Positions 1-34,302 of a DNA stretch of 34,302 nt are shown piece by piece. The stretch's first letter is position 1. Each line of letters starts with the position of its first letter. A program made the translations under genes and the position numbers. The DNA lies in the IMG/VR virus record IMGVR_UViG_3300011114_000953, positions 1 to 34,302 of that record; one strand, written 5' to 3'. The notes under the pieces were generated by a model, which was not told the origin of the DNA, did no database searches, and was given only the letters and a program-made list of their open reading frames with translations. The stretch comes from a virus.

Positions 1-114
1 GAGCAGCTGCGTGCGGAGCCTCTGCCTCCCATTGAACCGATGTCTCTGCTGTTTGGACTAGTGTTAGGCGTCATCATCGGGGTAATCATCCGTGACTCAT
101 ACGATGGGAGGTAA
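1..114 (+). CDS. C-terminal part of small membrane protein (complete copy at 34036-34275)
   Basis: This is the 3' end of the gene at 34036-34275, shown here only because the circle was cut within it. The frame is open from base 1 and ends at TAA 112-114. The 37 residues contain the single hydrophobic segment (LLFGLVLGVIIGVII) and a short charged tail. The stop lies one base before the ATG of the next gene at 116, and the GGGAGGT just before that ATG serves as its ribosome site. Confidence 0.85.
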   Translation, partial: EQLRAEPLPPIEPMSLLFGLVLGVIIGVIIRDSYDGR

Positions 115-141
115 CATGCTGACGACTTACAGGACCGCAGA
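1..141. repeat. 141-bp terminal direct repeat, left copy (circular overlap)
   Basis: Bases 1-141 are identical to 34162-34302. The repeat starts and ends inside genes, and its 141-base length equals a common assembler k-mer, so it most likely marks a circular contig, not true phage termini. It carries the last 37 codons of the small membrane protein gene that begins at 34036, and the first bases of the gene starting at 116. Confidence 0.97.
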
Positions 142-328
142 TAAAGCCATTCTGGAGAGCATGGGCGATGGCCTCATCACGCTCTGCCTTCCGACCCAGC
201 AGAACATCGACGACCTCGAGCATCAGTGCGACAGGTGGCAGGACGACGGCAGCGTCGTCAGGTTCATCTCCGACCTTCACGGATGGACCGTCGTTGTCGT
301 GAAGACGAAGGCCATCCGTGTCATCTGA
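116..328 (+). CDS. Small protein with CLPT...DDGS motif, paralogue 1
   Basis: A 70-residue protein of unknown function. The ATG at 116 is preferred over an upstream in-frame GTG at 92 because GGGAGGT (106-112) is correctly spaced and the preceding gene stops at 114. The sequence has the order Ala-rich helix, CLPT, about 16 polar residues with a Cys, then DDGS and a hydrophobic beta-like C terminus ending in WTVVVV. The next gene (339-539) has the same order of motifs, so the two look like a tandem duplication. No catalytic motif is visible. It is probably a small cytosolic accessory protein. Confidence 0.75.
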   Translation: MLTTYRTADKAILESMGDGLITLCLPTQQNIDDLEHQCDRWQDDGSVVRFISDLHGWTVVVVKTKAIRVI

Positions 329-338
329 AGGAGCGTCC

Positions 339-539
339 ATGTACGACACTGCGCGTGAAGCAATCTTCCACAGCCGGGAGACAGGGAAGAGTACGACCTG
401 CCTTCCGACCATGGACAATTACACTGAACTTGTCGAGGCCTGCTGGGACCGCAGGCTGCGCGACGACGGAAGCATTCTGTTCTCCTGCACATTGCCGGAG
501 AAGGACTGGAGCGTCGTGATGGAGAGGCGACCATGGTAA
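339..539 (+). CDS. Small protein with CLPT...DDGS motif, paralogue 2
   Basis: A 66-residue protein of unknown function. The ATG at 339 follows GAAGGAG at 327-333; a GTG at 318 in the same frame would overlap the previous gene and has no good ribosome site. It aligns along its whole length with the protein of 116-328: CLPT, an intervening Cys, a Trp-Asp-Arg segment, DDGS and a C-terminal WSVV. The two genes also share the 12-base string TGCCTTCCGACC at CLPT. It overlaps the next small gene by 7 bases. The function is not recognisable. Confidence 0.75.
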   Translation: MYDTAREAIFHSRETGKSTTCLPTMDNYTELVEACWDRRLRDDGSILFSCTLPEKDWSVVMERRPW

Positions 540-646
540 TGGCACTGATGGCTGCGGCGCAGCCGAAAGCAGACCCGCTGATGCTGGCCTTCATGGTCAT
601 CATCTTCTCGTACACCGCGTGGCTCCTCTGGAAATCGACGCGCTAG
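533..646 (+). CDS. 37-residue single-span membrane protein
   Basis: A very short gene starting at ATG 533 inside the end of the previous gene and ending at TAG 644-646. A GGAGAGG ribosome site lies at 521-527. The product has a short polar N terminus (QPKADP) followed by one hydrophobic segment (residues about 16-32, MLAFMVIIFSYTAWLLW) and a basic end (KSTR), which fits an N-out/C-in or tail-anchored membrane peptide. It could be a small lysis regulator or a membrane-acting host-takeover peptide, but nothing identifies its role. Support is the ribosome site, the overlap and the clean hydrophobic profile. Confidence 0.6.
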   Translation: MVMALMAAAQPKADPLMLAFMVIIFSYTAWLLWKSTR

Positions 647-648
647 TG

Positions 649-677
649 TTGACTCTCTCTAGTTGACGGTGTAAAGC
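649..677 (+). promoter_or_regulatory. Candidate sigma70-like promoter upstream of 724
   Basis: TTGACT (649-654) is followed after 17 bases by TAAAGC (672-677). The -35 box is good and the -10 box is weak. A second TTGACG lies at 663-668. This is in the only sizeable gap (647-723) among the plus-strand genes around the circle junction, with an AGAGAGGGAC ribosome site before the ATG at 724. Confidence 0.35.
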
Positions 678-723
678 AGGGAGGCAACCACGGTCTCCCC
701 AGACCAGTCACAAGAGAGGGACG

Positions 724-2431: not shown

Positions 2432-2483
2432 GTAGCGTTCTGCGCGCTGTATGCATGCCTCTCCCCGTCAAGAAGGACACACC

Positions 2484-2654: not shown

Positions 2655-2671
2655 AGGGTCACACCATAAGT

Positions 2672-3070: not shown

Positions 3071-3072
3071 GG

Positions 3073-5287: not shown

Positions 5288-6679
5288 TTAGCCTGCGATA
5301 GAGGTAAGACGAGCGTACAGGTTGTAGACGTAGATAGCCGTGTTATCTGGCGTGACTGACAGTTCAACCGTGTAAACTTTGTTAGCCAACAGTGAAAGCG
5401 CAGGCGTATTGATTGCAACCATAGTGCCAGTTGTCATTTCCGTAACATCCATGCTGTCACGCGTCCCCCATGCTGCGACTGCGGACGAGTCGTACCAACC
5501 ACGCGCAGTTATGCCGATTACCGACTGTTTCCAATTACTTAGCCTTACACTTATTGGCGTGTCTACATTTTGCGTAACCAGCGTTCCGGTATTATCTCTC
5601 AATGATAGAGTGATTAGCGAGTTCGTTCCGCTTGCAAGACCGGAATAATGCATCGTCACGGACAGCGTCAGGTTGTCAACAATGGTGTTTGAGACAAAGC
5701 TAAACCCAGTTTTGACAGCGGCGCGAACTGGGTTGGTCGTGGCAGCCGCAATCACAGCTCCGAAGGCATACCGCTGCGACACACCGTTGCAGAGGTCCGG
5801 CTGGAACACAGTAACCGCACCGTTCTGGGTGCCGATGACCTCCGTCAGCGGAGCGGTAGTCTGATGACTGAACTGCGCAGGGGCAGTGCCTGGGTTTGCA
5901 TTCATTGAATTGAACGCAACTCCGAGCAGTGTCATCGCTCCAAGTTCGTAAACTTGTGCTATATGACTCTGAACGTACTCGTAATAGGACGGAAGGCGCG
6001 GAGGGTTTCTGACCAAAGAGGGGAACACAGATGCGTAACCATCTGGCGGGTTTGGAATATTGGTACTGATGTAGTTTATCTGATACTCGTTCAGAGTGGA
6101 TGCTTCTCCGGCGCTGGGAGCAGGCACACCAGTCATGTCCAGAAGTTCATGCTTCTCGCCTGCCGTTATGGGGTATGTGACTTCATCTAGATAGATGATG
6201 TTCTCCACACCACCGCTCACGTTTACAGTTCCAAGTTGTTCCAGCTTCGAAGACTGGAAAGTCATACCAAAGTTCTGCGGACCTGTCGCAGCAGCGTTCA
6301 ACGGAAGGCTAATGTCTAGGTAAGTTGGAGTTCCGGCACTCGGAAGAAGGCCGACAGTAACGAACTCACTTCCACCCCAGCGAAAGATGTTGACGTACCC
6401 TTGAAAGCCGTCTCCATCTTGGCTGCTAGTCAGCGTCGCGTATGTCACACGGAAGTCTACCTGCTTCACGGCCTGTCCCACGTTCACCGTGAACATGAAG
6501 CCCCGTGGTTCCCAGTACGATGACCAGGTAACAGGGTGAGTGGCGTTCCACGCAATGCCGCCTCCACGCGTCATGTCATTGTTATAGCTGTTCGCGTTCG
6601 TCGTCAGGCCGTTTGCCAAGAAGGACGAATAGGGCATGTCCAGGAGCGCCTGCGCGTCGTCAATCTTCTTCCATGCCAT
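5288..6679 (-). CDS. Tail-tip / putative receptor-binding protein
   Basis: A 463-residue, beta-rich protein, high in Thr, Ser, Asn and Val, without Cys clusters or transmembrane segments. The start is ATG at 6679, overlapping the upstream stop as TGATG and preceded by GGAG; an upstream in-frame start (6691) would lie inside the previous gene. Composition and position, last large gene after the tail hub and before lysis, fit a distal tail or receptor-binding protein. The DNA is visibly more AT-rich (near 47-50 % in sampled lines) than the capsid genes, as is common for exchanged host-range genes. No named fibre domain is recognised. Confidence 0.6.
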   Translation of the reverse strand: MAWKKIDDAQALLDMPYSSFLANGLTTNANSYNNDMTRGGGIAWNATHPVTWSSYWEPRGFMFTVNVGQAVKQVDFRVTYATLTSSQDGDGFQGYVNIFRWGGSEFVTVGLLPSAGTPTYLDISLPLNAAATGPQNFGMTFQSSKLEQLGTVNVSGGVENIIYLDEVTYPITAGEKHELLDMTGVPAPSAGEASTLNEYQINYISTNIPNPPDGYASVFPSLVRNPPRLPSYYEYVQSHIAQVYELGAMTLLGVAFNSMNANPGTAPAQFSHQTTAPLTEVIGTQNGAVTVFQPDLCNGVSQRYAFGAVIAAATTNPVRAAVKTGFSFVSNTIVDNLTLSVTMHYSGLASGTNSLITLSLRDNTGTLVTQNVDTPISVRLSNWKQSVIGITARGWYDSSAVAAWGTRDSMDVTEMTTGTMVAINTPALSLLANKVYTVELSVTPDNTAIYVYNLYARLTSIAG

Positions 6680-9228
6680 CAGCGGCTCCACGGGTATGCA
6701 AAAATATCGTTTGCGTCGACCAGACCCATGGTGTCAGCCTGGAACGCGTCCCAGCATTCCTCCATGTCTTCCACACTGCCTGAGAAAACATTGAGGCCAG
6801 TGGCAGCTTGCATGATGATGATGTCTCCTGCAATGGCTGTGTCAAAGCCAGCACCGCTGAACTGAAGATTCGTGCTTCCAACGTTGACGAGTCGTTCTGT
6901 GAGACCATAAGGCGTCCCGTACTGGTCGTACAGCTCGCACCAGTAGTTCTTTGGAACGCCGCTTACGATGCGCTGCAGCGTCTGGTCAAACGCTTCAGGG
7001 TCAGAGGCCGGAGCGTTGAGCTGCGCCAGAGGAGCAGGAAGCGTGAACGCGTTGTCTTCAATGGTGATGACACCTGTCGACGCAACAGCGACAACGCGTG
7101 CGCTCACAGACACCAGCGACACACGGTTGGCTGCATACAGGTAGCCGGGCAGGAACAGCGTGTAGGAGCTCGTCGGAGTCTGCCAGCTGCGCGTTGCCTT
7201 CAAAACGATGCCGGTCGCATTAGCCACGCCCATCGACCCTTCGCCGTTAGGAATAAACAAACTAGTGAAGGCCACGTACTCTCCGATGGCGAGCTGCTTC
7301 GTTTCGTTCCGCAGCGTCACCTCAATGATGCCAGCAGCCTGCGAGTAACGCAGGACCATGTCCGTTCCGTTCTGGAACGCGAAACTCTGGATGGTTCCAG
7401 CCTGGTAATCTGTCCCCTGCTGCATCATGCTTCCGACAGTCACAATCTTTCCAGCCCCCGTGATGATGCGCTCCAAATTTGCAATCGGGTTTTTTGTCAT
7501 TGACAGGTTGTCTGCCGTGATGACGGCTGGGTACTCCACTGTCACGGACTGGATGCTGTTCGCTCTGTCGAAGCTAAGTCCGACCTTCGGTTCCGCGAAG
7601 TGAGAGTCGTTTATCGAAGTAGGAAAGGGGTTCGCACAAGCCCACCGGCCGAAGGTGATGCGACCTTTGTCGTAAACCATGAAGAGACCAAGGTTCTTCA
7701 TAATGTTGTCCAGGACCTCTCCAATGGTTTTAGGACCATCCGGCTTCACTGGAAGGATGAAAATATTTGACTCAGTAGTTGAAGTGATTGGGTTCCACAT
7801 CTGGCACAGCGGAATGTCGCGAAGCATCTGATCTGTGCTGAACGCTGCGTTCAATGAACCCAAATCAATGATTTGCAGATAGTCTGTCAATGGGAACGGA
7901 ATCCATGCAGCCATGCCCCATGCCCGGACGCCAGATGCTCCAGTAAAGTCGCCGTTGTATGTGCCGAAGATAAGGTCAATGATTGCAATTTGAAAGTCCT
8001 GCGCGCTGAATGCAATCTGAGCTGTAAACGCAGGGTCAATTTGCAAACTAATAGGCGTTACTATTCCATCGCGTCGTGCGCGACGTAGGTCCGATATACT
8101 GCCTTCTGTCAGTGCAATGTCTAGTTCGTCATCGTCGTTGTATTGGCGATAGTACCCGTCGTTGAACACCAGACTAAACCCGTTGGCGCGCATGTTATCT
8201 AGTTCAGGGTCAATCGGCGTTGCAGAGACAGTGATTACATTGCTATCTTCAATCTCAATGATGCCACTGACTCCGCCATACGGTCCGCTGCGAATCTGCA
8301 TCGCCCCGAACCGCGTGTCGTACGGGTTAGTCGTGTCCTCAAAGATTGGACCGGTCATGGATAGATTTGGGTAAACCTTCATGAATCCGCTAAAAAAACG
8401 ATTGCTATATTGTTGCTGTATCGCTTCTGAAAAATCGCTTCGACTCTTATAACCCGGAACAACATAAACGCTCAAACCAGACGACGACGGTGCCCACGGC
8501 GCGTTCTTTATGACGCCCATCAGCGACATGCATTCCACCGCAATCTGGTTCTCTGTCCCGGCCGAGGTCTGCAGACTCACACGCGAAACCACGCCACGGA
8601 AGACAACCGTTTCCGCAGCTGGAGACACAGCGTCTATGTCCACCGTGGAGATGGTCACGGCCTGCTGCTCAGCTCCGCCTGTCGGGTACTCGTTCCCCTG
8701 CCAGTAGGACGCATACAGCGTGGAACCTACCGCCTCTCCGCCGATAGTGCGCACAGGAATCGGCTGCGGCACAGACCCATAAGCCATCACCGCTTGGATT
8801 TCTCCAGGAATCAAACCATCCGAGGCTAACACCCCGTACGCAGCTCCATTGATGCGGATGATGTTTCCGTCTGCAATGGTGGATGCGTCAGTCACCTTTA
8901 TCGTCGGAGTCGGGTTAGGCGTAACATACGCGGTCGTCTGGATGCTCTGGTTATTTACGCCGCGAACCTCCGTAGCTCCACGCGACATCAGCACTGACAG
9001 CGTCTGCGTGTTAGCTAGGATACTGAAGGTCGTCGTCGGGTCCGAACCCATCGACGAGAAAATGCCTATCTCCGACGACATCTGCGTTGTGAGCTCTGTG
9101 ACCACCCCTTCAATCGCTGTGGATTGGAGGTACGACAACGGCCGGCTGGTCAGCGTCAGCGGCTCAAATTTGTCACCTTGAAACCCGATGCCGCTGATTC
9201 GAACGATGATGACGCGGTCAGAGGTCAT
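6679..9228 (-). CDS. Large tail-tip protein, candidate tail hub
   Basis: An 849-residue, mostly beta-structured protein, the largest in the tail module after the portal fusion. It sits two genes after the tape measure, where siphophages encode baseplate hub or central tail-tip proteins. A segment near residues 490-530 (DNIMKNLGLFMVYDKGRITF) resembles hub-type folds in style only. There is no peptidase or lysozyme motif. Its ATG overlaps the upstream stop by one base (TAATG), and its stop overlaps the next gene (TGATG), so the tail-tip genes appear translated in series. Homology to lambda gpJ or T4 gp27 would need structure comparison. Confidence 0.65.
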   Translation of the reverse strand: MTSDRVIIVRISGIGFQGDKFEPLTLTSRPLSYLQSTAIEGVVTELTTQMSSEIGIFSSMGSDPTTTFSILANTQTLSVLMSRGATEVRGVNNQSIQTTAYVTPNPTPTIKVTDASTIADGNIIRINGAAYGVLASDGLIPGEIQAVMAYGSVPQPIPVRTIGGEAVGSTLYASYWQGNEYPTGGAEQQAVTISTVDIDAVSPAAETVVFRGVVSRVSLQTSAGTENQIAVECMSLMGVIKNAPWAPSSSGLSVYVVPGYKSRSDFSEAIQQQYSNRFFSGFMKVYPNLSMTGPIFEDTTNPYDTRFGAMQIRSGPYGGVSGIIEIEDSNVITVSATPIDPELDNMRANGFSLVFNDGYYRQYNDDDELDIALTEGSISDLRRARRDGIVTPISLQIDPAFTAQIAFSAQDFQIAIIDLIFGTYNGDFTGASGVRAWGMAAWIPFPLTDYLQIIDLGSLNAAFSTDQMLRDIPLCQMWNPITSTTESNIFILPVKPDGPKTIGEVLDNIMKNLGLFMVYDKGRITFGRWACANPFPTSINDSHFAEPKVGLSFDRANSIQSVTVEYPAVITADNLSMTKNPIANLERIITGAGKIVTVGSMMQQGTDYQAGTIQSFAFQNGTDMVLRYSQAAGIIEVTLRNETKQLAIGEYVAFTSLFIPNGEGSMGVANATGIVLKATRSWQTPTSSYTLFLPGYLYAANRVSLVSVSARVVAVASTGVITIEDNAFTLPAPLAQLNAPASDPEAFDQTLQRIVSGVPKNYWCELYDQYGTPYGLTERLVNVGSTNLQFSGAGFDTAIAGDIIIMQAATGLNVFSGSVEDMEECWDAFQADTMGLVDANDIFAYPWSR

Positions 9229-18703: not shown

Positions 18704-18955
18704 ATGGACCAGTCAGCACTATCGAAAAGACAAAAGGCGCTCCTTGACGAGCTTCATCGCTGTCACGCAGTCGGATTCCACCCGTCTCCCAGAACCCTCG
18801 CAGCGCGCATCGGCTACTTCGGAGACAAAGCCGTCCGGTCTGAGCTCATGTCCCTCTTCATTGAAGGCCACATCACTCAAATCTTCAAAGGCATCGGCTC
18901 GAGGTCCAACAGGTACATCCTCAAAGGTTGCACCTGCGAGGTCTGCAGCCTCTAG
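18704..18955 (+). CDS. LexA-like winged-helix DNA-binding protein, opposite strand in late cluster
   Basis: An 83-residue protein whose length is nearly all winged helix: residues about 6-72 follow the LexA N-terminal domain pattern (LSKRQKALLDEL, then a PS.RTLA..IGY recognition region, then LMSLFIEGHI and GSRSNRYIL). There is no protease domain. A CTCEVC tail could bind metal. The GGAGGA ribosome site is strong. It lies on the plus strand between the minus-strand portal and protease genes, and its TAG stop shares CTAG with the portal stop. It needs its own promoter, and may regulate late genes. This is a 'moron'-like insertion in layout. Confidence 0.8.
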   Translation: MDQSALSKRQKALLDELHRCHAVGFHPSPRTLAARIGYFGDKAVRSELMSLFIEGHITQIFKGIGSRSNRYILKGCTCEVCSL

Positions 18956-21858: not shown

Positions 21859-23108
21859 GTGTTCACCCTGGAAGATGTCGCCTGATTCTTCGGAATCGTG
21901 CGGACATCACGACTTACACCTAAACGCTCTGCGCCATGCCACGCCAGAGCATGCGCGCAAACAGCGTCATCGTTCATTGACGACGGCGCTTCGTAAACAA
22001 TCCTGTTGCCGCGCATCTCGTACTCAAAGCCTTCCAGCTCCGCTCGGTGCACGCCGTCGATAACCGAAGTGCGCCCCTGCTGTAAAGCCATTGCAAGGCC
22101 TTCCATCAAACCTTGCTTAGAGGCAGACGAGAAGATGAAGGGTTCAACCCACACCTTCTCCTTCTCCAGCTGCTCTCCGACTGGGTCGCCAACTCCGGTC
22201 GCGTCGTAAAACACGCAAGCCTTTGACTGCGGCCCCACGATGCCTTTGATTTGCTCCACGATGCGGCTGTACGGCAGGCCATGCCACCGATGGAACTGCG
22301 CCACCTTGCGGTTCGCGTCCAAGCCGATGAGAACCGTGTGGTCACGCTTTCGAGCTATGTCTAAACCCCAGACGCGAACGGGAGCGCCTGTGAGCTGGCC
22401 GTTGCAGAGCTCCGCGCAGTTCCGAATCGCGTCGATGCCGAACGGGTTCGCACCGTCGTCGCTGGGTTCGCAGTAATACAGCTGCCGGAAGACAGAATGC
22501 GGCATGGACCGGCGCGCCATCTCGAGGTCCGCAGCGTGCCACAGGCCAGCTGCAACAGCGTCGTCAGCAGTAAGACGATGATACGCAAAGCCCGGCTCCC
22601 CTGCCTCCGCTTTCCGGCTCCACTGGTAATGACGATTGCTGCGGCCGCGAACGTTGCCGATGAGACGCATCCGGCCCCGCGTCGCTGTCGTCGTACTGTA
22701 CACAGCGTCAACCGCGTCGTCTTTCATCCGACTGGCTTCGTCCAGGACGGCACTTGAAACAGCAGACCCGTATAGGTTGTCTGGTTTGTCAGCGCTCTTG
22801 AACATCCAGCGCCGTTCGCCCGGCCCGATGATGCTGCGGTCGGACAGCGACTGACGGAAGCCCGGCTTACCGCGCAGCAGCTTCCACGCTTCACGGAAGG
22901 CCATGTCTGCCTGTTGGTACACAGGTGCCACCCACCAGTGTTCAGTGTCCGGGCCCGCCTTCAGCATCTCCGAAATCTGCCAGATGATACAGGAGAGAGT
23001 CTTCCCTGCCTTCGTCGTCGATTCAATGCAGACGATGCGTGCAGGGTCCAGAACCGCAGCGCCCTGCTTCTTATACAGGCGCGGTAGTTCAACGACGATT
23101 TCAGGCAT
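21852..23108 (-). CDS. terL: Terminase large subunit
   Basis: A 418-residue DNA packaging motor. The ATPase part has a Walker A-like STTKAGKT at 30-37 and a Walker B VLDEA at 121-125. The nuclease part has the three acidic positions expected of the RNase H-like fold: Asp250 in VWGLDIARKRD, Asp302 in VFYDATG, and Asp380/381 in SMNDDAV. It cuts concatemers and drives DNA through the portal. It overlaps the small subunit gene by 8 bases and the portal by 7. Compact size is normal for this group. The packaging mode (cos or headful) is not evident. Confidence 0.93.
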   Translation of the reverse strand: MPEIVVELPRLYKKQGAAVLDPARIVCIESTTKAGKTLSCIIWQISEMLKAGPDTEHWWVAPVYQQADMAFREAWKLLRGKPGFRQSLSDRSIIGPGERRWMFKSADKPDNLYGSAVSSAVLDEASRMKDDAVDAVYSTTTATRGRMRLIGNVRGRSNRHYQWSRKAEAGEPGFAYHRLTADDAVAAGLWHAADLEMARRSMPHSVFRQLYYCEPSDDGANPFGIDAIRNCAELCNGQLTGAPVRVWGLDIARKRDHTVLIGLDANRKVAQFHRWHGLPYSRIVEQIKGIVGPQSKACVFYDATGVGDPVGEQLEKEKVWVEPFIFSSASKQGLMEGLAMALQQGRTSVIDGVHRAELEGFEYEMRGNRIVYEAPSSMNDDAVCAHALAWHGAERLGVSRDVRTIPKNQATSSRVNTW

Positions 23109-24250: not shown

Positions 24251-27004
24251 ATGAGCGAGACGAGGTGCCTAGACGCGGCCCTTCTGTACGCTTCGCGCGG
24301 CTGGCAGGTCTTTCCTGTCGGCTCCGGGAAGTCAAAGAAGGAGCCATTTACGAAGAACGGTCTGCACGATGCGACGACGGACCCTCCGACGATTCGCAGC
24401 TGGTGGAAGAAGTGGCCCAGCGCGAACGTGGGCATCCGGACGGGGCAGGCCTCTCGTCTGGCAGTGCTGGACCTAGACGCGAAGGACATTCCGGTTGAAG
24501 TTCTGATGGAGGAGTGTGAGCGGCTGGCCGGTTCGCCCTTCCCACGGACGGCGATGTCGAAGACGGGAGGCGGAGGTCTGCACCTTCTGTTTGAGCTGGA
24601 AGAGGGACAGGTCGTCCAGAACTCCACGGGAAGCATCTGCAGGAACGTGGATACTCGAGGAGAGGGTGGCTACATCGTCGCGCCACCTTCGCTGCATAAC
24701 AGTGGGAAGCTGTACGCATGGGCGGAGGAAGACGGGGACACGGGTCTGGAGTCGGAGTGTCCGCCTGCAGCTGCAACGTGGCTGCTTCTCCTTCTGAAGA
24801 GTACGGGTACGACGGCGCGTGAAGAGCGGGTTCGGAACGGCGACCTAGGCGATGTGTCCTGGGTGGCATCGGCGCTGTTCAGTCTAAGTGCGTCGATGTC
24901 TTATGCGGACTGGTTCCGCGTGGGCATGGCCCTGCGCGATGTGCCGGACGGTTACCAGCTGTGGATGGATTGGTCAGCGACGAGTCCGAAGTTCGATGAT
25001 GAGTCTGCGAAGGTGCAGTGGGAGCGCATCCAGAAGAACGGCAAGTCGTTCATCGGTCTGGGTACGCTGTGGCATGCAGCGACGCAGGCTGGGTGGAAAC
25101 CGCCCAAGAAGGTCAAAACAGAGCCGGTCATGCCTAACTGGATGCTGGACGATGTGCCACTGCCAGAAGAGCCGTCTGCGAAGAAGGAGAAGGCCGCAGC
25201 GGAGGAGCCTGCAGCTGCTCGGACATACGCGCCTAACCTGCCAGAAGATTATGACATCGACGAGAACGGGCGTCTGGTCCGGGTGGCGATGGTCAAGGGG
25301 AGGGACGGCAAAGAGGTAGAGAAGCATGTACTGGTGTCTGACCCTCCCTTCTTTATCACGAAGCGCATCCTCGAGGTGACGATGGGCGTGGAGAGCCTGC
25401 AGGCGGAGTGGGACGACGAAGACAGGAGGAAGATACAGGTGGAGTCACGTCGGGTGTTCTGCAGCGGTAACGCTCTGCTGGGTTGCCTAGACTCTGGGAT
25501 ACCTGTGACCTCTGCGACCTCTGCGGAGGCAGTGCGCTACATCGGCGCGTCGGAGTCGATGTTACGCAGGTGTGCGCACCAGGAGCGGATGTCGCGCGTG
25601 CTAGGATGGCATGGCAAAGGCTTCCTGCTAGGAGAGGTTGCCATGGGCGATGCCCCTGCCTTCTTGAAGCTGGATGAGACAGGCGCGAAGGCCGTGTCGA
25701 TGGTTCACCAGAACGGGACGGCGCAAGAGTGGACGACGGCCCTGTTGCCCTATCTGATTGAGCATTCGACGCTGCGAGCGATGGTGGCATCAGCGTCTGC
25801 ATCGGCGCTGCTCCCGTTCCTTGGAGAGACAGCCCGGACCTTCTTTATGGACCTGTGCGGAGAGACAGGGTGCGGCAAGTCGCAGATGATGCAGGTGGCG
25901 CTGTCAGCGATAGGGTATCCGCTTGAGCTGGCGACGACCTACAGCTCCACGCCGATTGCGATTCAGAGTTATGTCAGCATGTTCGCTCACCACACGGTTG
26001 CGATTGATGAGACGAAGAACTGGTCTGAGCGTTTAGGTCCAAAGCACCTGTCTGCGCTAGTGTACCAGCTGATGAGCGGCCGAGGCCGTGACCGTGGAAC
26101 GACGGTGGTAGGAAAGTTCCAGCGGACGGAAGAGTTCAAGAGCATCATTATCAGTACATCGGAGTATCCGCTGTCGTCGATTACGGGAGACGGTGGCCTG
26201 CGCTCGAGGTGTGTGACGCTGCATGGGTTGCCATGGGGAGAGCAGTCGCCGCAGATGGCAGCGAAGATTGCGGACCTGCTGTCTCACATGTCGATGCATT
26301 ACGGCCATGCGCAGATGCGGATGGTGGAACATTTGCAGGGTCTGGACGATGCCGGCAAGAAGGCGCTGCGCGCATCGTGGAACCATTACCAGGCGGAGTT
26401 CACGACGCGTGCACTGAAGCTGTCGCCGGGGAATAAGGTGGCACCTCGTCTGGCCGGTTACATGGCGACGCTAGAACTAACGTGGAGGCTGCTGCAGGAC
26501 TTCATGGCGAAGTGGGTTGGAGAGGCCGCTTTGCCTGTGGACTGGTACGACATCATGGTGGGAACCGACGAGCTGTGGATGAAGGTTCTGTCAGCGGGAG
26601 CCAGCGCGGACCGTCCGCTTGCAGCTTTGGAGTTCGTCATGGGCCTTGTGGCTTTGGAGCCGGACAAGTTCGCGAACGTCGGAGCGAAGACGCAGGAGAT
26701 GCCGAACGGCGGCTGGATGGGTGTTGCGCGCGTGCAGGACGGAACGATTGCGGAGCTGGGTGTGGTTGTGAGTAAGCTGCGCGAAGTGTTGAAGCGTGCT
26801 GACTTCGACGCGGAAGGCGTCTTCAAGGCGTGGCAGCTGCGCGGGTGGTTGGAGACTGATGCGAAGCGCCTGGACAAGAAGGCGATGGTTGCAGGCGTCC
26901 GCGTGCGCTGCATGGTTTTGTCTAAAGCCGCTTTGAAGGAAGTCCACGGGGAGCCGGTGCCGGACATCCGCGTGGTTGATGAAAGGTTCGAAGATGTCGT
27001 CTGA
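24251..27004 (+). CDS. Prim-Pol primase fused to DUF927-like helicase
   Basis: A 917-residue replication initiator. Residues about 5-180 form a bifunctional primase-polymerase domain: DLD at 74-76, SKTGGGGLH at 103-111, and DTRGEGGYIVAPPS at 134-147. Residues about 215-283 resemble the PriCT linker domain (YADWFRVGMALRD, GTLWHAATQAGW). Residues about 360-750 are a DUF927-like ATPase with Walker A GETGCGKS (537-544) and Walker B VAIDET (583-588). It can prime and unwind DNA, so it could start replication while the host supplies the main polymerase. It has its own promoter next to repeats. Confidence 0.92.
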   Translation: MSETRCLDAALLYASRGWQVFPVGSGKSKKEPFTKNGLHDATTDPPTIRSWWKKWPSANVGIRTGQASRLAVLDLDAKDIPVEVLMEECERLAGSPFPRTAMSKTGGGGLHLLFELEEGQVVQNSTGSICRNVDTRGEGGYIVAPPSLHNSGKLYAWAEEDGDTGLESECPPAAATWLLLLLKSTGTTAREERVRNGDLGDVSWVASALFSLSASMSYADWFRVGMALRDVPDGYQLWMDWSATSPKFDDESAKVQWERIQKNGKSFIGLGTLWHAATQAGWKPPKKVKTEPVMPNWMLDDVPLPEEPSAKKEKAAAEEPAAARTYAPNLPEDYDIDENGRLVRVAMVKGRDGKEVEKHVLVSDPPFFITKRILEVTMGVESLQAEWDDEDRRKIQVESRRVFCSGNALLGCLDSGIPVTSATSAEAVRYIGASESMLRRCAHQERMSRVLGWHGKGFLLGEVAMGDAPAFLKLDETGAKAVSMVHQNGTAQEWTTALLPYLIEHSTLRAMVASASASALLPFLGETARTFFMDLCGETGCGKSQMMQVALSAIGYPLELATTYSSTPIAIQSYVSMFAHHTVAIDETKNWSERLGPKHLSALVYQLMSGRGRDRGTTVVGKFQRTEEFKSIIISTSEYPLSSITGDGGLRSRCVTLHGLPWGEQSPQMAAKIADLLSHMSMHYGHAQMRMVEHLQGLDDAGKKALRASWNHYQAEFTTRALKLSPGNKVAPRLAGYMATLELTWRLLQDFMAKWVGEAALPVDWYDIMVGTDELWMKVLSAGASADRPLAALEFVMGLVALEPDKFANVGAKTQEMPNGGWMGVARVQDGTIAELGVVVSKLREVLKRADFDAEGVFKAWQLRGWLETDAKRLDKKAMVAGVRVRCMVLSKAALKEVHGEPVPDIRVVDERFEDVV

Positions 27005-27173: not shown

Positions 27174-27638
27174 ATGGACATCCATACCGACATTAGTCCT
27201 GTTCTGTCTCTTATCCCGCCTACTCTGACCATCGTGGCGCAGGTCCTGCCTCTGCCGTGGAAGGTCACTTACACCTCGGCCACGTCGTACTCTTTGAGTG
27301 CAGAGCGGAAGGTTGACCTGCTGCCTGACATGCTGGCGTATGAGACGCCCGGTTACCACAGCGAGAGCTGGAAGGTTCACTGCGTGGTTGTGATGGACGA
27401 GGTCCGCATGGTCCTGCAGGTCGGCACCCATGTCATGGACAACTTCGAGAGCACCTTCTCTGTTGGCTGGACGAATCTGACGACTGCAACGCCGTCGCGT
27501 CCGGTTCTGCGTGCACAGCTCGAGCAGGCTCTGACGAACGAAGGCGCAGCTCACGCTGTGACCAGCGTCATCGACGAGCTGGTGATTCTGATGCAGGAGC
27601 GTCGTGACGCCATTCGCGCGACGGTGTCCCATGACTAA
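27174..27638 (+). CDS. Hypothetical early protein upstream of exonuclease
   Basis: A 154-residue protein, first of the operon from the promoter at 27088, with a strong AAGGAAGG ribosome site. The N-terminal part is hydrophobic but Pro-rich (LIPPTLTIVAQVLPLPW). The middle is beta-like (VHCVVVMDEVRMVLQVG) and the C terminus is helical. Its last 8 bases overlap the YqaJ-type exonuclease gene, so the two are probably coupled. It may be a partner or inhibitor for host nucleases, by analogy with phage recombination operons, but nothing in the sequence shows this. Confidence 0.7.
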   Translation: MDIHTDISPVLSLIPPTLTIVAQVLPLPWKVTYTSATSYSLSAERKVDLLPDMLAYETPGYHSESWKVHCVVVMDEVRMVLQVGTHVMDNFESTFSVGWTNLTTATPSRPVLRAQLEQALTNEGAAHAVTSVIDELVILMQERRDAIRATVSHD

Positions 27639-28704
27639 GCCGCGTCACACTTACGCGAACAAGCAGGCCGTGGCTCTTCCTCCTGCGGAACACGGCAGCG
27701 CGCAGTGGCAGCTGGGCCGCGCAAACCACATCGGCGCGTCTGAGGTCGCTGCGGTTCTGGGTGTCTCCAAGTGGGCTGGCCTGCTGGACATCGTTCGGAC
27801 GAAGCGTGACCTGCGTGCAGGCATCGTGGACGAGAACGATAACGACGCAATGCGCTTCGGTCGCGACTTCGAAGAGTTCATCGTGCGGGCTGGCATGCAG
27901 AAGCTGGGTATCACGACGATGTCGTCGCCTCTAGCGTGGACGCATCCGGAGTCTCTGGCCTTCGGAGCAGTGTCTGCGACTCCTGACGCTCTCATCCTGG
28001 ACGAGCGGATTTCGTCTGGGTTCGGGGAGGAGCTTGTGGTTGCAACCTTTGAAGCGAAGGTAGACCGCAGCGGCGCAGACTGGCAGCAGGTGGACGAGTT
28101 CGGCTTCGCTGACCTCGAGCCGGGCGATGTTCGGCTTCAGTATTATCTGCAGTGTCAAGCGCAGCTTCTCGTCTGTGGATGCAAGAAGGGTTACCTGTGC
28201 GTGGCGACCGGCCTCGGATACGACCGCATCCACCTTCTGGAAATCCTCGAGGACAAAGAGACGCAGGCGACCATCATCGAAGCAGCAGAGGCTGCTATCG
28301 CATGGGTCAATGACAGCGCCGGCAGATGGCCTGCAGCGTCGGACAGCGACAGCCTAGCATCTCTGGCAGCGACCATCCGTCCGAAGGCGACCGACGACTC
28401 CATCATGGTGTCTGGTGCCGTTGAAGCAGCGATGGAAGAGTACACCGACTTGAACCGCTCCAAGAAGGTCATTGAAGACCGGCAGGACGCGCTGAAGAAG
28501 GTCATCGTGGCATACCATGCGGAAGGTCCGAAGCTGCACACGGCTTCCGGCATCAAGTCGTCGTTCACGCCGGAGTCTTCGAAGGAGGCCTTTGACGCGA
28601 AGGCGTTTGAGGAGGCGCAGCCTGCGATGGCTGCACTGTACCGCAAGACTGTGACGCGTTCTGGCGGGGCGACCATCACAGCGCCACGGGCGAAGAAGGG
28701 TTAG
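27631..28704 (+). CDS. YqaJ-type phage exonuclease
   Basis: A 357-residue nuclease of the lambda exonuclease/YqaJ, PD-(D/E)XK family. Visible motifs are GASEVAAVLG near 35-44, MRFGRDFEEFI near 74-84, ATPDALI with Asp119, the E-X-K element FEAKV (Glu141, Lys143) and YYLQCQAQL near 171-179. It should resect DNA ends to give 3' single strands for the RecT protein encoded three genes later. ATG 27631 overlaps the previous stop; a GTG at 27604 with an AGGAG site is an alternative start. C-terminal residues after about 260 are helical and family-variable. Confidence 0.9.
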   Translation: MTKPRHTYANKQAVALPPAEHGSAQWQLGRANHIGASEVAAVLGVSKWAGLLDIVRTKRDLRAGIVDENDNDAMRFGRDFEEFIVRAGMQKLGITTMSSPLAWTHPESLAFGAVSATPDALILDERISSGFGEELVVATFEAKVDRSGADWQQVDEFGFADLEPGDVRLQYYLQCQAQLLVCGCKKGYLCVATGLGYDRIHLLEILEDKETQATIIEAAEAAIAWVNDSAGRWPAASDSDSLASLAATIRPKATDDSIMVSGAVEAAMEEYTDLNRSKKVIEDRQDALKKVIVAYHAEGPKLHTASGIKSSFTPESSKEAFDAKAFEEAQPAMAALYRKTVTRSGGATITAPRAKKG

Positions 28705-28788: not shown

Positions 28789-29478
28789 ATGAAGGTTCAA
28801 GAACAGTTAGCGTTACAGTGTGTGCTGATGTCTCTGCAGAACAGGGTACTTCCGAAGAAGGATGAGAACGCTGTTGAGTTTGCGCATCGTCTCCACGACC
28901 TTGGGTCTGGCATCCTTGCAGAGATGCTGATGGAGGCCGATGTCCTAGACGATGGTGAGAGCGGCTTTCCGATTTACACGGAAGCAGACGACCAGTCGGA
29001 GGAGTTTGAGCCGGAGGAGACGCTGACCGAAGGGACACGGATTCGTTACTACATCGACGAGGACGGCAAAGAGGACTGGTACAGCGTCAGCGAACCGTCT
29101 GCGAAGCTGGTGCCGATTCACGCATGCGTGCACTGCGATAAGACCTGCAGCGAAGGCGAGGTGGACGCAGTCTTCGGATTTCGGAACATGAAGCATGTTA
29201 CGTCTGAAGGGGAGTTCAGTGTGGTTCGCCGGCAGAGCTGGTGCCGTGAGTGCCGTCTGGAGGCTCTGCGTCAGCGGCAGGCTGCGCGTCTAGAAGTGAC
29301 GCAGGAGCTCAAGAAGGAGTTTGGCATTCCTGCCGGCATGCCTCCTGCGGACTTTGTGAAGCTGTTCCGGATTTTGTCTAAGGGCCGTTCGCCGTTGCAG
29401 GTGTGGCTTCAGAACGAAATGGCAATGAAGAAATGGGGACCCATCACATGGTCGGTCGTCCCGAAGAAGCCGGACTAG
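28789..29478 (+). CDS. Zinc-finger-containing hypothetical protein
   Basis: A 229-residue protein. Residues about 112-157 have a CxxC...CxxC zinc-binding layout (CVHCDKTC, then WCRECRLEALRQRQ) followed by a basic helix, a pattern shared with phage zinc-ribbon and HNH-associated proteins. The N-terminal half is very acidic, and the C-terminal 50 residues contain Trp-rich segments. It has GGAGAGAGG before its ATG. Position between exonuclease and RecT suggests nucleic-acid metabolism. No HNH histidines are seen, so nuclease activity is not claimed. Confidence 0.75.
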   Translation: MKVQEQLALQCVLMSLQNRVLPKKDENAVEFAHRLHDLGSGILAEMLMEADVLDDGESGFPIYTEADDQSEEFEPEETLTEGTRIRYYIDEDGKEDWYSVSEPSAKLVPIHACVHCDKTCSEGEVDAVFGFRNMKHVTSEGEFSVVRRQSWCRECRLEALRQRQAARLEVTQELKKEFGIPAGMPPADFVKLFRILSKGRSPLQVWLQNEMAMKKWGPITWSVVPKKPD

Positions 29479-29951: not shown

Positions 29952-29969
29952 CCAACCGCAACCCCAGAT

Positions 29970-29991: not shown

Positions 29992-30017
29992 GTGCGTTTA
30001 GACTAAGGACATTGACA

Positions 30018-30848
30018 ATGACAACCGAAATTCAGACACAACCACGCAAGGACCTCATCGGCTGGCTTGCATCTCCTGCGACCGTGGAAGAGTTCCGGAA
30101 GGCGCTCCCCGCTGTGATGACCGCAGAGCGCTGGACGCGTTCGCTGCAGACGACTGCACGCAAGAACCCGAAGCTGCTGCAGTGCTCTCTGGCATCTGTC
30201 CAGGCATGCATCATGACGGCGGCGCAGCTCGGCCTTGAGCCTAACGTGCAGGGCCTGTGCTACCTCATCCCGCGCGGCAATGAATGCACGCTCATCATCG
30301 GGTACGAAGGCATGCTAGCGCTGATGCGTCGCAGCGGAGAGATTCGGAGCTTCAGCGCGAATGTGGTCCGGAAGTCGGACACCTTCAAGATTGCGCGTCA
30401 CCTCGAGGTTCCGTTCATCCATGAAGAGAACCTCGATCCGGACGCCGACGACAGCATGGTGGGCGTGTACTGCTTCGTCCGCTTGAAGAGCGGGGAGAAC
30501 TTCATTGAGTACATGAGCAAGAAGCAGTGCGACCAGATTCGGTCGCGCAGCCAGTCTGGTTCGTCTGGTCCGTGGAAGACGGATTACGAGCAGATGTGCC
30601 GGAAGACGGTCATCCGTCGCGCGTTCCATTACCTTCCGAAGTCCACGGACATTGTCCAGGCGCTCGAGCTGATGGACGACGAAGAGCGTTCTGGTCAGAC
30701 CATCGACGCGACGCATGCTCCTCTGGAGACTGTGAAGCGTGGAGCTCTGCGGATTCCGATGGCACCTCCGGCCGCAGACAACGAGGTGGAGAAGGTGTCC
30801 ATCGACGTAAACGCGACTGACTCCGACGATAATGAACTGCTGCTGTGA
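30018..30848 (+). CDS. recT: RecT-family single-strand annealing protein
   Basis: A 276-residue recombinase that anneals single strands made by the YqaJ-type exonuclease. RecT family hallmarks are clear: AAQLGLEPNV in the region of residues 60-75, CYLIPRGNECTLIIGYEGMLAL near 77-100, and an FVRLKSG/EYMSKKQCDQIRSRS segment followed by PWKTDYEQMCRKTVIRRAFHYLP. The C-terminal tail is acidic, as in proteins that recruit partners. The ATG at 30018 is chosen over an in-frame TTG at 30012 because AGGAC at 30006-30010 is spaced correctly. The next gene overlaps by four bases. Confidence 0.93.
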   Translation: MTTEIQTQPRKDLIGWLASPATVEEFRKALPAVMTAERWTRSLQTTARKNPKLLQCSLASVQACIMTAAQLGLEPNVQGLCYLIPRGNECTLIIGYEGMLALMRRSGEIRSFSANVVRKSDTFKIARHLEVPFIHEENLDPDADDSMVGVYCFVRLKSGENFIEYMSKKQCDQIRSRSQSGSSGPWKTDYEQMCRKTVIRRAFHYLPKSTDIVQALELMDDEERSGQTIDATHAPLETVKRGALRIPMAPPAADNEVEKVSIDVNATDSDDNELLL

Positions 30849-31321
30849 GCGTCATGCGAGGGAGCCGGACCGCCTTTCCGGAACATAACTGCCCACACTG
30901 CGGCATGTATGCATGGGGCGCTGTGGAGTTCATAGCGTCTAACGGCGCGCAGCATTACCGCTGCGGCTGCATGGAGTGCGACAGCGAAGTCGTGGCATGG
31001 CCTGACCGCGTGCAGGAGGCCCTTCCGGGCATGTCTGACTGCAGGGTGGGAGACAGGTACGACCTGACGAAAGAGTTCGCGCTGTCGCAGAGCATCGTGA
31101 AGCGGGTCCAGTCGCCGGAGCTTCAGTATGCAGCTGCAGAGTCGTTCTCCGGTCAGACCTGCAATGTCTGCGGCGACCCGTTCGTTGAAATGCATCATTA
31201 CGCACCGAAGGAGTTCTTCGGAGTCGCGGAGGCCGATGCCTTCGGAACAGTTCCGCTTTGCAAGAAGCATCACGACAGATGGCACCAGGTCATCAATGAT
31301 TTCATGAAGAGGGCACGATGA
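30845..31321 (+). CDS. HNH-like zinc protein
   Basis: A 158-residue protein with two metal sites. The N-terminal portion has NCPHCGMYAW and a later CGCMEC, a zinc ribbon. The C-terminal portion has CNVCGDP, MHHYAPKEF and VPLCKKHHDRWH, the usual CxxC, HH and CxxH order of HNH endonucleases. If active it would nick or cut DNA, perhaps at recombination intermediates. It starts with GTG overlapping the recT stop (GTGA) and overlaps the next gene at ATGA; an internal ATG at 30854 is possible. Confidence 0.78.
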   Translation: MSVMRGSRTAFPEHNCPHCGMYAWGAVEFIASNGAQHYRCGCMECDSEVVAWPDRVQEALPGMSDCRVGDRYDLTKEFALSQSIVKRVQSPELQYAAAESFSGQTCNVCGDPFVEMHHYAPKEFFGVAEADAFGTVPLCKKHHDRWHQVINDFMKRAR

Positions 31322-32377: not shown

Positions 32378-32655
32378 ACATTGATTACAGTAAACTGCCG
32401 GATGGTCACATCATTGATGGAGCCGCGCTGGTGTCGATGAAGCTGCAGGAGGCGAAGGGCTTCATGGCTGATGTCACGACTGCCAGGTACAAGCTGGGTC
32501 GCTGCAAGAAGAGCATGCAGGAGCCTGCGTGGAGCTGCATGATGGGCGTGTACACGCTGCGCATTGAGAACTTGAAAGGGTTCATGGCGCAGATGAAGCT
32601 GCTGCTGCAGCGCCTCCAGCTGGAGATGAAGAGCAGAGGCATCCATGACGACTAA
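32374..32655 (+). CDS. Hypothetical small helical protein
   Basis: A 93-residue protein, nearly all helix, with Met-, Leu- and Lys-rich stretches (AALVSMKLQEAKGFM and FMAQMKLLLQRLQLEM). It has two Cys but no metal motif. It overlaps the previous gene by ATGA and the next by 11 bases. Its composition suggests a coiled-coil or protein-binding role. Function unknown. Confidence 0.7.
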   Translation: MNIDYSKLPDGHIIDGAALVSMKLQEAKGFMADVTTARYKLGRCKKSMQEPAWSCMMGVYTLRIENLKGFMAQMKLLLQRLQLEMKSRGIHDD

Positions 32656-33160
32656 CACTAACCGTGAAGAGGCCATTGCTCGCATCATGGCCGCGGCGCA
32701 GGAGCGTGCAGACCGTGAAGCTGCAGCTGCACAGGCCGTCATCGACAGGAAGCGGAAGAGGAAGGAGACGAAGAAAGCATGGCGTCTTGCGAACCCAGAG
32801 AAAGCGAAGGAAGCGCAGCGGAAGAAGCAGTCGAAGCGCGATGCCTGGAGGCGTCAGAAGTACGCGACTGACCCTGTGTATGCAGAGGCGGTCCGACAAA
32901 AGCGCAGAGAGGAGTACGCAGCCAAACGGCAGCTTTTAGGTGCAGAGGTGTGCAACGCGATTCAGAAAGCAGCTGTGAAGGCTCGGAAGGCCCGTAATCC
33001 AGAAGAGTTTCTGGCAAAGCAGAGAGAGTACCGAAAGCAGCGAATAGCGCAGCAGAAGGCCGAAGCTGTAAAATATTGGCTTACAACTGAACCATCCGGA
33101 GATTCCGGACAGATGGTTACATCGCGTAACCAGCTCATAACCGCGCATTACCGCGCATAA
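32645..33160 (+). CDS. Highly basic helical protein with NPE-type repeats
   Basis: A 171-residue, strongly basic (Lys/Arg), Ala/Glu-rich protein. Segments such as LANPEKAKEAQRKKQ, then KYATDPVYAEAVRQKRREEY, then KARNPEEFLAKQREYRKQR look like a repeated 'N/D-P-E/V helix' unit, and a similar unit is in the 446-residue protein at 1091-2431. It may bind nucleic acid. The C-terminal 25 residues lose the helical bias and run into more AT-rich DNA with 10-bp repeats, perhaps marking an insertion junction. Confidence 0.75.
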   Translation: MTTNTNREEAIARIMAAAQERADREAAAAQAVIDRKRKRKETKKAWRLANPEKAKEAQRKKQSKRDAWRRQKYATDPVYAEAVRQKRREEYAAKRQLLGAEVCNAIQKAAVKARKARNPEEFLAKQREYRKQRIAQQKAEAVKYWLTTEPSGDSGQMVTSRNQLITAHYRA

Positions 33161-33165
33161 CCGGG
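33136..33165. repeat. Three 10-bp direct repeats
   Basis: CATAACCGCG, CATTACCGCG and CATAACCGGG follow each other without gaps across the end of the basic-protein gene, whose TAA stop lies in the third copy. The 10-base period is close to one helical turn. They could bind a regulator, or simply reflect slippage. Confidence 0.65.
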
Positions 33166-33174
33166 AGGGATGAG

Positions 33175-33534
33175 ATGTGGAAACTTGGGTATGAAAACTG
33201 GATTAGCAATGAAGAGCTTGACAAACTGGACAGAGATGACCTGCTCCAATGTGCAGTTTTTGAATGGAAAATCGTAGATTACGATAAGAAGTGGCTGGCG
33301 GTGTTCTTTCCGTTGAACCACTGCTGCGACATGACCGGATGCATCAAACGTGCACAGCAGATAATGCCGAATGTGCGAGCTATCTCAACCATCAATCAGG
33401 AAGGCCTCGACACCTTCTACTACAAAGGCAATGTCGCAACGAACACGCAATCAACACCAGATGAATGGTTCAACTCCAGAAGAGGATTGAAGCCTCCCGG
33501 ATTCGAACATGTTCCGTATTCTGAGGATGTTTGA
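33175..33534 (+). CDS. Hypothetical protein in AT-rich segment
   Basis: A 119-residue protein of unknown function with a GGGAGGGATGAG ribosome site. It has an acidic N-terminal helix, a central segment with paired cysteines (NHCCDMTGCIKRA), and a polar C terminus. Sampled GC is near 40-43 %, clearly below neighbours, and codons are A/T-rich, suggesting recent gain. It stops immediately before the RuvC-like gene. Confidence 0.7.
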   Translation: MWKLGYENWISNEELDKLDRDDLLQCAVFEWKIVDYDKKWLAVFFPLNHCCDMTGCIKRAQQIMPNVRAISTINQEGLDTFYYKGNVATNTQSTPDEWFNSRRGLKPPGFEHVPYSEDV

Positions 33535-34035
33535 GTGAGCACCTTCATCTACTCCGGCGTGGACCCCGGCAAGAACGGCGCAATCGCCAGCATCGACCAG
33601 GACGGCGCAGTCCTGAAGATTAGCCGCTTCAAAGACGCGGACACTGAAGGCCGCATCGCACTGGTCATCGCAGACCACTTCGCGGAGCTGGACGACGGCA
33701 TCCACGCAGCGACCATCGAACGGGTGGGCGCGATGCCGAAGCAGGGCCTTTCAAGTACGTTCACTTTTGGAAGGGTTTATGGGGAGGCATGGGCTGGCCT
33801 ATTACTCTCGAAGGCCGGAGGTGTCCGCGTCCATGCAGTCACACCATCCATGTGGCAGCGCGACATGTACCTTCCGAAGCGCGACTGCGTGACGAACCAT
33901 AAGCGCACCTTGAAGGAAGAGGCGGAAAAGCGGTTTGGACGCAAGTTCATCCTTGCAGAAGCAGACGCGGTCTGGCTGGCCGAATGGTCGCGCGTGAAGG
34001 GACCGTGGAGCCGTGGCATGCGAGCGGAGGGTTAG
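33535..34035 (+). CDS. RuvC-like Holliday junction resolvase
   Basis: A 166-residue RNase H-fold nuclease. The first motif is GVDPGKNGAIA with Asp10; the second is AATIERVGAMP with Glu62; a later helix has AEADAVWLAEW with Asp144. STFTFGRVYGEAWAGLL and TPSMWQRD between them also fit phage RuvC-like enzymes. It would cut four-way junctions made by RecT-driven recombination or packaging. Start is GTG directly after the previous TGA, with GAGG upstream. It probably resolves branched concatemers before terminase acts. Confidence 0.85.
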   Translation: MSTFIYSGVDPGKNGAIASIDQDGAVLKISRFKDADTEGRIALVIADHFAELDDGIHAATIERVGAMPKQGLSSTFTFGRVYGEAWAGLLLSKAGGVRVHAVTPSMWQRDMYLPKRDCVTNHKRTLKEEAEKRFGRKFILAEADAVWLAEWSRVKGPWSRGMRAEG

Positions 34036-34275
34036 ATGGCGCAGGCGTCCCCAGCTGCAAAGGACCAACAGCCAGGGACGGGACCTTCCGGTCTCTCTGG
34101 TCCCCACCATTACCTGCATAACATCCTAGCAGAGATTCCAGTCGTTACAAGAAGACAGGTGGAGCAGCTGCGTGCGGAGCCTCTGCCTCCCATTGAACCG
34201 ATGTCTCTGCTGTTTGGACTAGTGTTAGGCGTCATCATCGGGGTAATCATCCGTGACTCATACGATGGGAGGTAA
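34036..34275 (+). CDS. Small C-terminally anchored membrane protein
   Basis: A 79-residue protein. The N terminus is polar (Ala, Gln, Pro, Gly, Ser), followed by helix (LHNILAEIPVVTRRQVEQL), and the C terminus has one transmembrane segment (LLFGLVLGVIIGVII) ending RDSYDGR. The ATG directly follows the previous TAG and has GGAGGG inside the end of that gene. Its last 114 bases are the copy at 1-114. It could be a lysis or membrane regulator; nothing specific is seen. Confidence 0.72.
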   Translation: MAQASPAAKDQQPGTGPSGLSGPHHYLHNILAEIPVVTRRQVEQLRAEPLPPIEPMSLLFGLVLGVIIGVIIRDSYDGR

Positions 34276-34302
34276 CATGCTGACGACTTACAGGACCGCA
34301 GA
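34162..34302. repeat. 141-bp terminal direct repeat, right copy
   Basis: Identical to 1-141. Contains the end of the gene starting at 34036 and 26 bases of the gene that begins at 116 (ATG at 34277 in this copy). Confidence 0.97.

Follow-up and report, generated by a model that had tools for sequence, protein, structure and literature searches.

Near-absence of GATC from an uncultured phage genome and clade-wise switching of lost palindromes in its family

Results

GATC is nearly absent from the phage genome

The genome studied here (G000), from a lake phage, contains only three GATC sites. The elimination of this word probably reflects escape from a GATC-cutting Type II enzyme in the host. 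The window, which is the whole stretch of 34,302 nt that was analyzed, covers the complete virus record. By direct count, its GATC sites are at positions 844, 7830 and 30435, exactly as reported in the initial annotation. In comparison, 127 sites are expected from base composition and 139 from a maximum-order Markov model, and the z score of −16.7 from that model is the lowest among all 256 4-mers. In 200 second-order Markov sequences the mean is 140.9 (sd 10.9, minimum 116). In 60 shuffles that preserve protein and codon usage, the coding sequence, which has 3 sites, is expected to have 125 (sd 8, minimum 107). The Burge-type compositional bias of GATC is 0.03 (3 sites versus 99 expected), well within the definition of site elimination by Rusinov et al. 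(2018), a bias below 0.1 with more than 15 sites expected.

The other palindromes examined as controls do not show an equal loss. CTAG occurs 57 times (Markov expectation 44) and CATG 196 times (261). The earlier proposal of specific avoidance of GATC is therefore strongly supported (3 sites versus 127–141). Two weaker losses, absent from that annotation, were also seen in the window, for TTAA (6 versus 37 expected) and ACGT (57 versus 137 expected).

GATC is avoided by synonymous codon choice

The loss of GATC is produced by synonymous codon choice. Isoleucine is encoded by ATC in 0 of 125 cases where the preceding codon ends in G, compared to 267 of 356 elsewhere in the window. Similarly, aspartate is encoded by GAT in 3 of 110 cases before a C, and in 129 of 432 elsewhere. 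The three remaining sites are the following.

844–847, in ORF 724–1098: GAGC in the aligned sequences of the close relatives G002 and G008, with Glu there and Asp in G000
7830–7833, in ORF 6679–9228 (minus strand): plus-strand GGTC, or GACC as read along the gene, in aligned G002 and G008
30435–30438, in the recT-like gene: GACC in aligned G002 and G008, with Asp codon GAC instead of GAT

None of these sites has a counterpart in the aligned close relatives, and they are therefore recent point changes. Among 1,823 places in G002 that are one base off GATC, G000 has GATC at 3, and among 1,796 such places in G000, G002 has it at 0. The same rate in this comparison is 1.5–3.2% for AGCT, CATG, CCGG, CGCG, CTAG, GCGC, GGCC, GTAC, TCGA and TGCA. 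The loss of GATC persists across 10–13% nucleotide divergence.

Organization of the genome

The first and last 141 bases of the contig are identical, and it is therefore circular or terminally redundant. The main features are listed below.

1–34302: whole phage contig, nearly GATC-free, with 141 identical bases at both ends
15835–16863, minus strand: conserved head-region protein, probably the major capsid protein, with no PHROG family
18952–21858, minus strand: large protein, putatively portal/MuF-like, with a weak Phage_Mu_F match (0.0016, under the curated cut-off)
21852–23108, minus strand: terminase large subunit (phrog_2, 1.4e-25)
24251–27004, plus strand: Prim-Pol/DUF927 primase-helicase
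27604–28704, plus strand: RecE/YqaJ-like exonuclease
28789–29478, plus strand: ORF with a Cys4 zinc motif, between recE and recT
30012–30848, plus strand: RecT-like annealing protein
30845–31321, plus strand: small HNH endonuclease, with close orthologues only in G002 and G008

This is a dsDNA phage, with the terminase large subunit located within a gene block that is conserved across the family. The cluster of the portal/MuF-like protein is present in 33 genomes. No tRNA was found in the window. No integrase family was found among its 45 ORFs, and the phage may therefore be virulent, with weak helix-turn-helix matches (Sigma70_r4, 6e-4; LexA_DNA_bind, 1e-3) counting against this assignment.

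The lost palindromes switch between clades of the family

The phage belongs to an uncultured family of tailed phages of ~33 kb, collected by a search with the terminase large subunit. GATC is lost in 22 of the 63 family records (5 sites in total versus 1,544 expected). The remaining 41 records have 4,090 sites, versus 3,895 expected, and none of the 63 shows an intermediate level. The GATC-free records form two clades (A and D) in a 49-row tree of the head-region protein, which was flagged because long branches meet; a second tree, of the terminase, has 10 open forks.

The lost palindromes differ among the clades, being GATC in one, GATC and ACGT in another (G013, G021, G025 and N132), and GTAC and ACGT in others. 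What is new in our observations is that, within a single uncultured family, the lost sites switch by clade. Our literature search, with most subscription journals outside its reach, found work on the general phenomenon and none on this family.

A single origin of the GATC loss was considered and is disfavoured, as 13 of 14 gene trees (FastTree) require two label changes. The RecT tree requires one, although its gene set lacks a RecT from G004. One ancestral loss followed by later regain may have occurred. G004, sister to the clade of the window, has the lowest GATC level among GATC-bearing records, at 0.92 of the base-composition expectation, and with its protein sequences fixed it has 92 sites versus 156 expected. 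A distant relative outside the family count, G034, is also GATC-poor (8 sites versus 94 expected).

Methyltransferase genes in the family

The initial annotation had noted no visible methyltransferase in this phage, and the searches bear this out. None was found by Pfam scans of the 45 ORFs (E up to 0.01), or by tblastn with ten methyltransferases from relatives. Among family records with at least 24 kb of sequence, a methyltransferase was found in none of the 9 that are GATC-free and in 8 of the 9 that are GATC-bearing, a contrast based on few independent clades. Some of the matches are partial, with a single 284-residue ORF in G004 and a gene that runs off the contig in G016. Among GATC-bearing family contigs of at least 10 kb, 8 of 19 have no match, and several of these are fragments or partial sequences. 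G033 (28.6 kb) is one of the eight, yet it is not small. G034 does encode a C5 methyltransferase.

The enzymes of the GATC-bearing members are of the Dam (PF05869), N6_N4_Mtase, C5 and MmeI types. G007 and G011 have N6_N4 methyltransferases. The methyltransferase of G030 belongs to the Dam family, which N103 matched too. Only this family name suggests that any of the relatives' enzymes may act on GATC.

Searches for the host

A terminase profile and two-motif scan of 84,980 genomes returned 60 stretches fitting the pattern, none of them a relative. A RecT profile identified 18 loci in unrelated bacteria (32–46% identity), with no host signal. A look for CRISPR spacers compared 20 kb of the window with 784 genomes, and three short matches were found in 399 genomes of one order and two in 385 genomes of one class. 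Of the five matched loci (L096 to L100), L096, L097 and L100 were inspected and have no repeat array. At L096 there is a single pair of 27-base repeats that are 70% alike. Named phages (Tunturiibacter, Thermus, Meiothermus and others) have related terminases at 23–36% identity, which is too distant for naming the host.

Discussion

Escape from host restriction

GATC-cutting restriction enzymes include MboI, Sau3AI and DpnII. The host lineage most likely carries an orthodox Type II enzyme of this kind, which would cut unmethylated GATC. A phage with no detectable methyltransferase of its own would then survive best by offering zero sites. A new GATC created by point mutation would reduce the chance of successful infection, and would be purged chiefly via synonymous codon changes. 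The extreme and specific loss, its synonymous route, its clade-wise distribution and the undetected methyltransferase support this reading. The loss of different palindromes in different clades would be expected if each clade meets the enzymes of its own hosts.

Site avoidance is well documented in phages by Rusinov et al. (2018; PMC6286503), where elimination is strongest among virulent phages; no integrase was seen here, and a virulent lifestyle would fit the restriction reading. The window resembles the cases described there in its near-absent palindromic 4-mer with a bias below 0.1, its dsDNA tailed nature, and the lack of a visible integrase. There are differences, however. The lost word varies here by clade, we infer both the host enzyme and its type, and within the family methyltransferase genes were found only in GATC-bearing members. 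Phage-encoded methyltransferases, another known system, are thus present in this family, whereas none was detected in the window or the GATC-free members.

Against this reading, neither the host nor the enzyme was found in the terminase, RecT and 20-kb window searches. The initial annotation had suggested restriction in the host lineage, of MboI or DpnI type. Host restriction stands as the best explanation, and with no host or enzyme found the two types are not separable. Dam-linked control, also named there, is kept as a weaker rival, since relatives lose GTAC and ACGT.

The window phage and its nearest kin are most likely a clean case of known phage evasion of bacterial defence. Knowledge of site elimination comes from surveys of phages whose hosts are known. 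In this uncultured freshwater family, the forbidden words change sharply from clade to clade, in an all-or-none manner. Should host enzymes be responsible, phage genomes from metagenomes would bear a record of which restriction enzymes their unseen hosts carry, and the lost words could aid host assignment. Moreover, losing the site and carrying a methylase would become testable as alternative answers to one pressure.

Other explanations

An unlikely alternative is modification-dependent restriction of the DpnI type, with the phage growing in Dam-positive cells and its methylated GATC being cut when it enters certain other strains among its hosts. The phage would need no methyltransferase, and PMC6286503 gives a GATC CB below 1 in all 46 phages whose hosts encode the Type IIM enzyme for this site (below 0.8 in 45). 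Its authors, however, explain the weak avoidance of these sites chiefly by ordinary Type II systems that share the site. In addition, the Dam-family gene of G030 would harm that phage in its own host, and the GTAC and ACGT losses of the sister clades better fit ordinary Type II enzymes.

We consider it quite improbable that mismatch repair is responsible, with MutH cutting undermethylated GATC in the phage, or the lack of GATC maintaining a high mutation rate, as has been suggested in coliphages. This would require a Dam/MutH host, and such hosts are known among Gammaproteobacteria. GTAC and ACGT are not known to be used in this pathway. Loss restricted to GATC among the relatives would be expected, but the GTAC and ACGT loss of the sister clades and the added ACGT loss in G013, G021, G025 and N132 are left unexplained. 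The roughly full GATC expectation in 41 family records also argues against a family-wide pressure. The precedent is phiX174, which has 0 GATC sites versus about 20 expected, and in which 20 added sites gave an eightfold lower mutation rate (PMC5014478, which cites Deschavanne and Radman 1991 for MutH-driven counterselection in coliphages). Against this reading, the same paper reports that the added sites carried no significant fitness cost in its setting. GATC is missing, or nearly so, from the genome in both cases. In contrast to the coliphages, members of the window's family lose other palindromes, and our searches gave no hint of a Dam/MutH host.

A nuclease of the phage itself could cut GATC in host DNA, a site-free phage being immune, and the window does encode an HNH endonuclease (30845–31321). 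This is very unlikely. HNH orthologues are close only in G002 (98%) and G008 (95%), with G010 and G014 at 31%, and no match exists in GATC-free G013, G020, G021 and G025 at E up to 1. The HNH protein was rejected as a general cause, as the nuclease is not in every GATC-free member. The GTAC and ACGT losses elsewhere would also remain unexplained.

The Cys4 ORF is another candidate, as it has a 48-residue stretch of similarity to ORFs at the equivalent place in clade D. Eight of the nine GATC-free family genomes with at least 24 kb of sequence, from both clades, carry this Cys4 stretch between recE and recT. It was not found in GATC-bearing records, and the likeness in G011 and G016 is confined to 23 residues outside it. 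However, the proteins are just 23–24% alike across clades, and the stretch is missing in GATC-free G025. The ORF has no Pfam family, its best match to a solved structure has an E value of 0.36, and its structure model is poor (pLDDT 49, low confidence). That this protein acts on GATC, for example by helping destroy host DNA so that the phage must lack its own target, is highly doubtful; freedom from GATC would then be linked to a factor of the phage as well as to the host.

A library or assembly artefact, or mere base composition, for which no supporting points were found, can practically be dismissed. Codon-preserving shuffles give 125 sites, and phages from one record set (3300007734, a Lake Soyang virome, a TruSeq library made without amplification according to PMC7553992) fall into different GATC groups, with 0 sites in G002 and G013 and 228 in G007.

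Depletion of GATC in the window

The tetranucleotide GATC is found at positions 844, 7830 and 30435 of the window and nowhere else in its 34,302 bases, exactly the three places reported in the initial annotation. The roughly 120 sites expected there compare well with the computed values, 127 from base composition, 139 by the maximum-order Markov model (z –16.7, the lowest among the 256 4-mers) and 141 in 200 second-order simulations (minimum 116). The Burge-type formula gives 0.03. The claim that the avoidance is specific for GATC also holds, as CTAG (57 vs. 44 expected) and CATG (196 vs. 261) show no comparable loss. The GATC loss in the window is a strong, well-controlled signal, a real phenomenon of a known kind.

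A milder depletion is seen for ACGT (57 vs. 137 expected) and TTAA (6 vs. 37). TTAA and GGCGCC (1 vs. 12 in the window, 0 vs. 11 in its close relative G002) may be avoided in this clade as well.

The avoidance is achieved largely at synonymous positions. Synonymous codons were exchanged within the genome, keeping protein and codon usage, for 30,726 coding bases (ORFs from a simple script). The 60 shuffles give 125 GATC on average (sd 8, minimum 107), compared to 3 observed. Isoleucine is never encoded by ATC after a codon ending in G (0 of 125), whereas ATC is used in 267 of 356 cases after other codons. Similarly, aspartate is GAT in 3 of 110 cases before a codon starting with C and in 129 of 432 before others. 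AATC, CATC, TATC, GATA, GATG and GATT are 1.3- to 1.5-fold over Markov expectation, an excess that is partly arithmetic because GAT and ATC enter this expectation.

Distribution and maintenance in the family

Relatives were collected from IMG/VR with terminase, primase and head-protein queries, giving 63 family records (33 fetched first and 30 later, with G009 and G034 excluded as outside the family); many are fragments, and some of the later 30 are covered in part. With GATC-free defined as below 10% of the base-composition expectation, 22 records are GATC-free (5 GATC in 397,399 bases vs. 1,544 expected) and 41 are GATC-bearing (4,090 vs. 3,895). No record has an observed/expected ratio between 0.024 and 0.92.

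On the head-protein tree (49 rows, 21 GATC-free and 28 GATC-bearing), which is flagged for long branches that meet, the GATC label requires two changes, also over the 5–95% range of 200 bootstrap trees. Two changes are required in 13 of 14 single-gene trees as well. Clade A contains the window, G001, G002, G008 and N108, with the GATC-bearing G004 as its sister, and the second GATC-free clade (clade D) has 16 rows.

The window shares 90% identity with G002 over 30,126 aligned bases and 87% with G008 over 26,251. Its three GATC sites are private, with GAGC, GGTC and GACC in both relatives at these places. Only 3 of 1,823 one-base neighbours of GATC in G002 are GATC in the window, and none of 1,796 in the window are GATC in G002. 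The corresponding rate is 1.5–3.2% for AGCT, CATG, CCGG, CGCG, CTAG, GCGC, GGCC, GTAC, TCGA and TGCA; GATC is set against these ten only, since rates are likewise low (0–1.5%) for ACGT and the four palindromes made of A and T alone. The private sites and the low rate of gain show that selection against GATC is recent or continuing.

Other palindromes

Different words are lost elsewhere in the family. In G003, G007, G012, G026–G029 and several later records, GTAC and ACGT are nearly absent and GATC is normal. Part of clade D (G013, G021, G025 and N132) is GATC-free and has lost ACGT, and G020 retains about half its ACGT (47 vs. 86), possibly a stepwise addition of forbidden words. The codon-preserving test, run on 17 genomes, bears these losses out, with 0 GTAC vs. 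48 expected and 1 ACGT vs. 56 in G007, and 1 ACGT vs. 96 in G025.

TCGA is strongly lowered in some GTAC/ACGT-poor relatives (9 vs. 104 in G007, protein fixed). With protein fixed, CTCG/CGAG is at 113 vs. 293 in G002, 207 vs. 301 in the window and 218 vs. 297 in G008, a possible non-palindromic site avoided by one member, G002. Aspartate not before C is GAT in 237 of 292 cases in G007 and 259 of 308 in G026, despite genomes of 64% G+C.

Methyltransferase genes

Methyltransferases of the N6_N4, C5, Dam (G030) and MmeI (G004) types are found in GATC-bearing relatives with Pfam and NCBIfam (METHYLTRANSFERASES). The tblastn queries were ten proteins picked up when ORFs of the first 35 records were scanned for motifs; records that supplied a query match by construction, and the test is absence elsewhere. 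Among family records with at least 24 kb of sequence, none of nine GATC-free records has a match, compared to eight of nine GATC-bearing ones (the exception is G033). For contigs of at least 10 kb, the numbers are 0 of 11 and 11 of 19. The window was said to lack a visible methyltransferase, and none of the ten enzymes matches it. In GATC-free records the motif scan picked up the primase ORF (the window, G001, G002 and G008) and one ORF in G014 without any family evidence.

This contrast is suggestive, as the clades are few. Outside the family, the distant relative G034 (35.7 kb, 40% GC, terminase 33% identical) has a C5 methyltransferase and is poor in GATC (8 vs. 94 expected), CATG (8 vs. 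76), GGCC (5 vs. 54) and CCGG (9 vs. 61), a misfit with a simple either-or rule. The part worth keeping is the clade-wise switching within one uncultured family, together with its parallel in methyltransferase genes.

Possible mechanisms

The simplest account would be that the phage escapes an orthodox Type II host enzyme by having lost the site which that enzyme cuts. Host enzymes that differ between clades would be expected to leave losses of different palindromes from clade to clade. Site avoidance is reported to occur mostly at orthodox Type II sites, to be stronger in non-temperate phages and, for roughly one viral genome in ten, to be complete or nearly so (PMC6286503). No integrase family was found in a scan of the window ORFs, though weak helix-turn-helix matches are present. 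Terminase and RecT profile searches of genome contigs, a comparison of 20 kb of the window with 784 genomes and a repeat-array check at three of the five short matches did not find a host.

Other explanations would be cleavage by a DpnI-type enzyme, mismatch repair of the kind described for phiX174 (PMC5014478) or a GATC nuclease encoded by the phage. A library artefact is spoken against by G002, G013 and G007, which come from one Lake Soyang virome, reported as prepared without amplification (PMC7553992), and yet differ in their lost words.

Two candidates for a phage factor are present in the window:
30845-31321, HNH gene, with close orthologues in G002 and G008 only
28789-29478, ORF with a Cys4 zinc motif, between recE (RecE/YqaJ-like exonuclease) and recT (RecT-like annealing protein)

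A 48-residue stretch of the Cys4 ORF is similar to clade D ORFs at the equivalent place. It is found in eight of nine GATC-free genomes with at least 24 kb of sequence (not in G025) and in none of the GATC-bearing records, of which G011 and G016 share 23 residues outside it. Seven GATC-bearing genomes examined have other ORFs or none between recE and recT. The stretch may be no more than a sign of common descent or of exchange at this locus.

The window ends carry an exact repeat of 141 bases (1-141 and 34162-34302), and relatives that have a terminal repeat show 127, 123 or 121 bases. Repeats of these lengths resemble k-mer overlaps left by an assembler on a circular map rather than biological ends.
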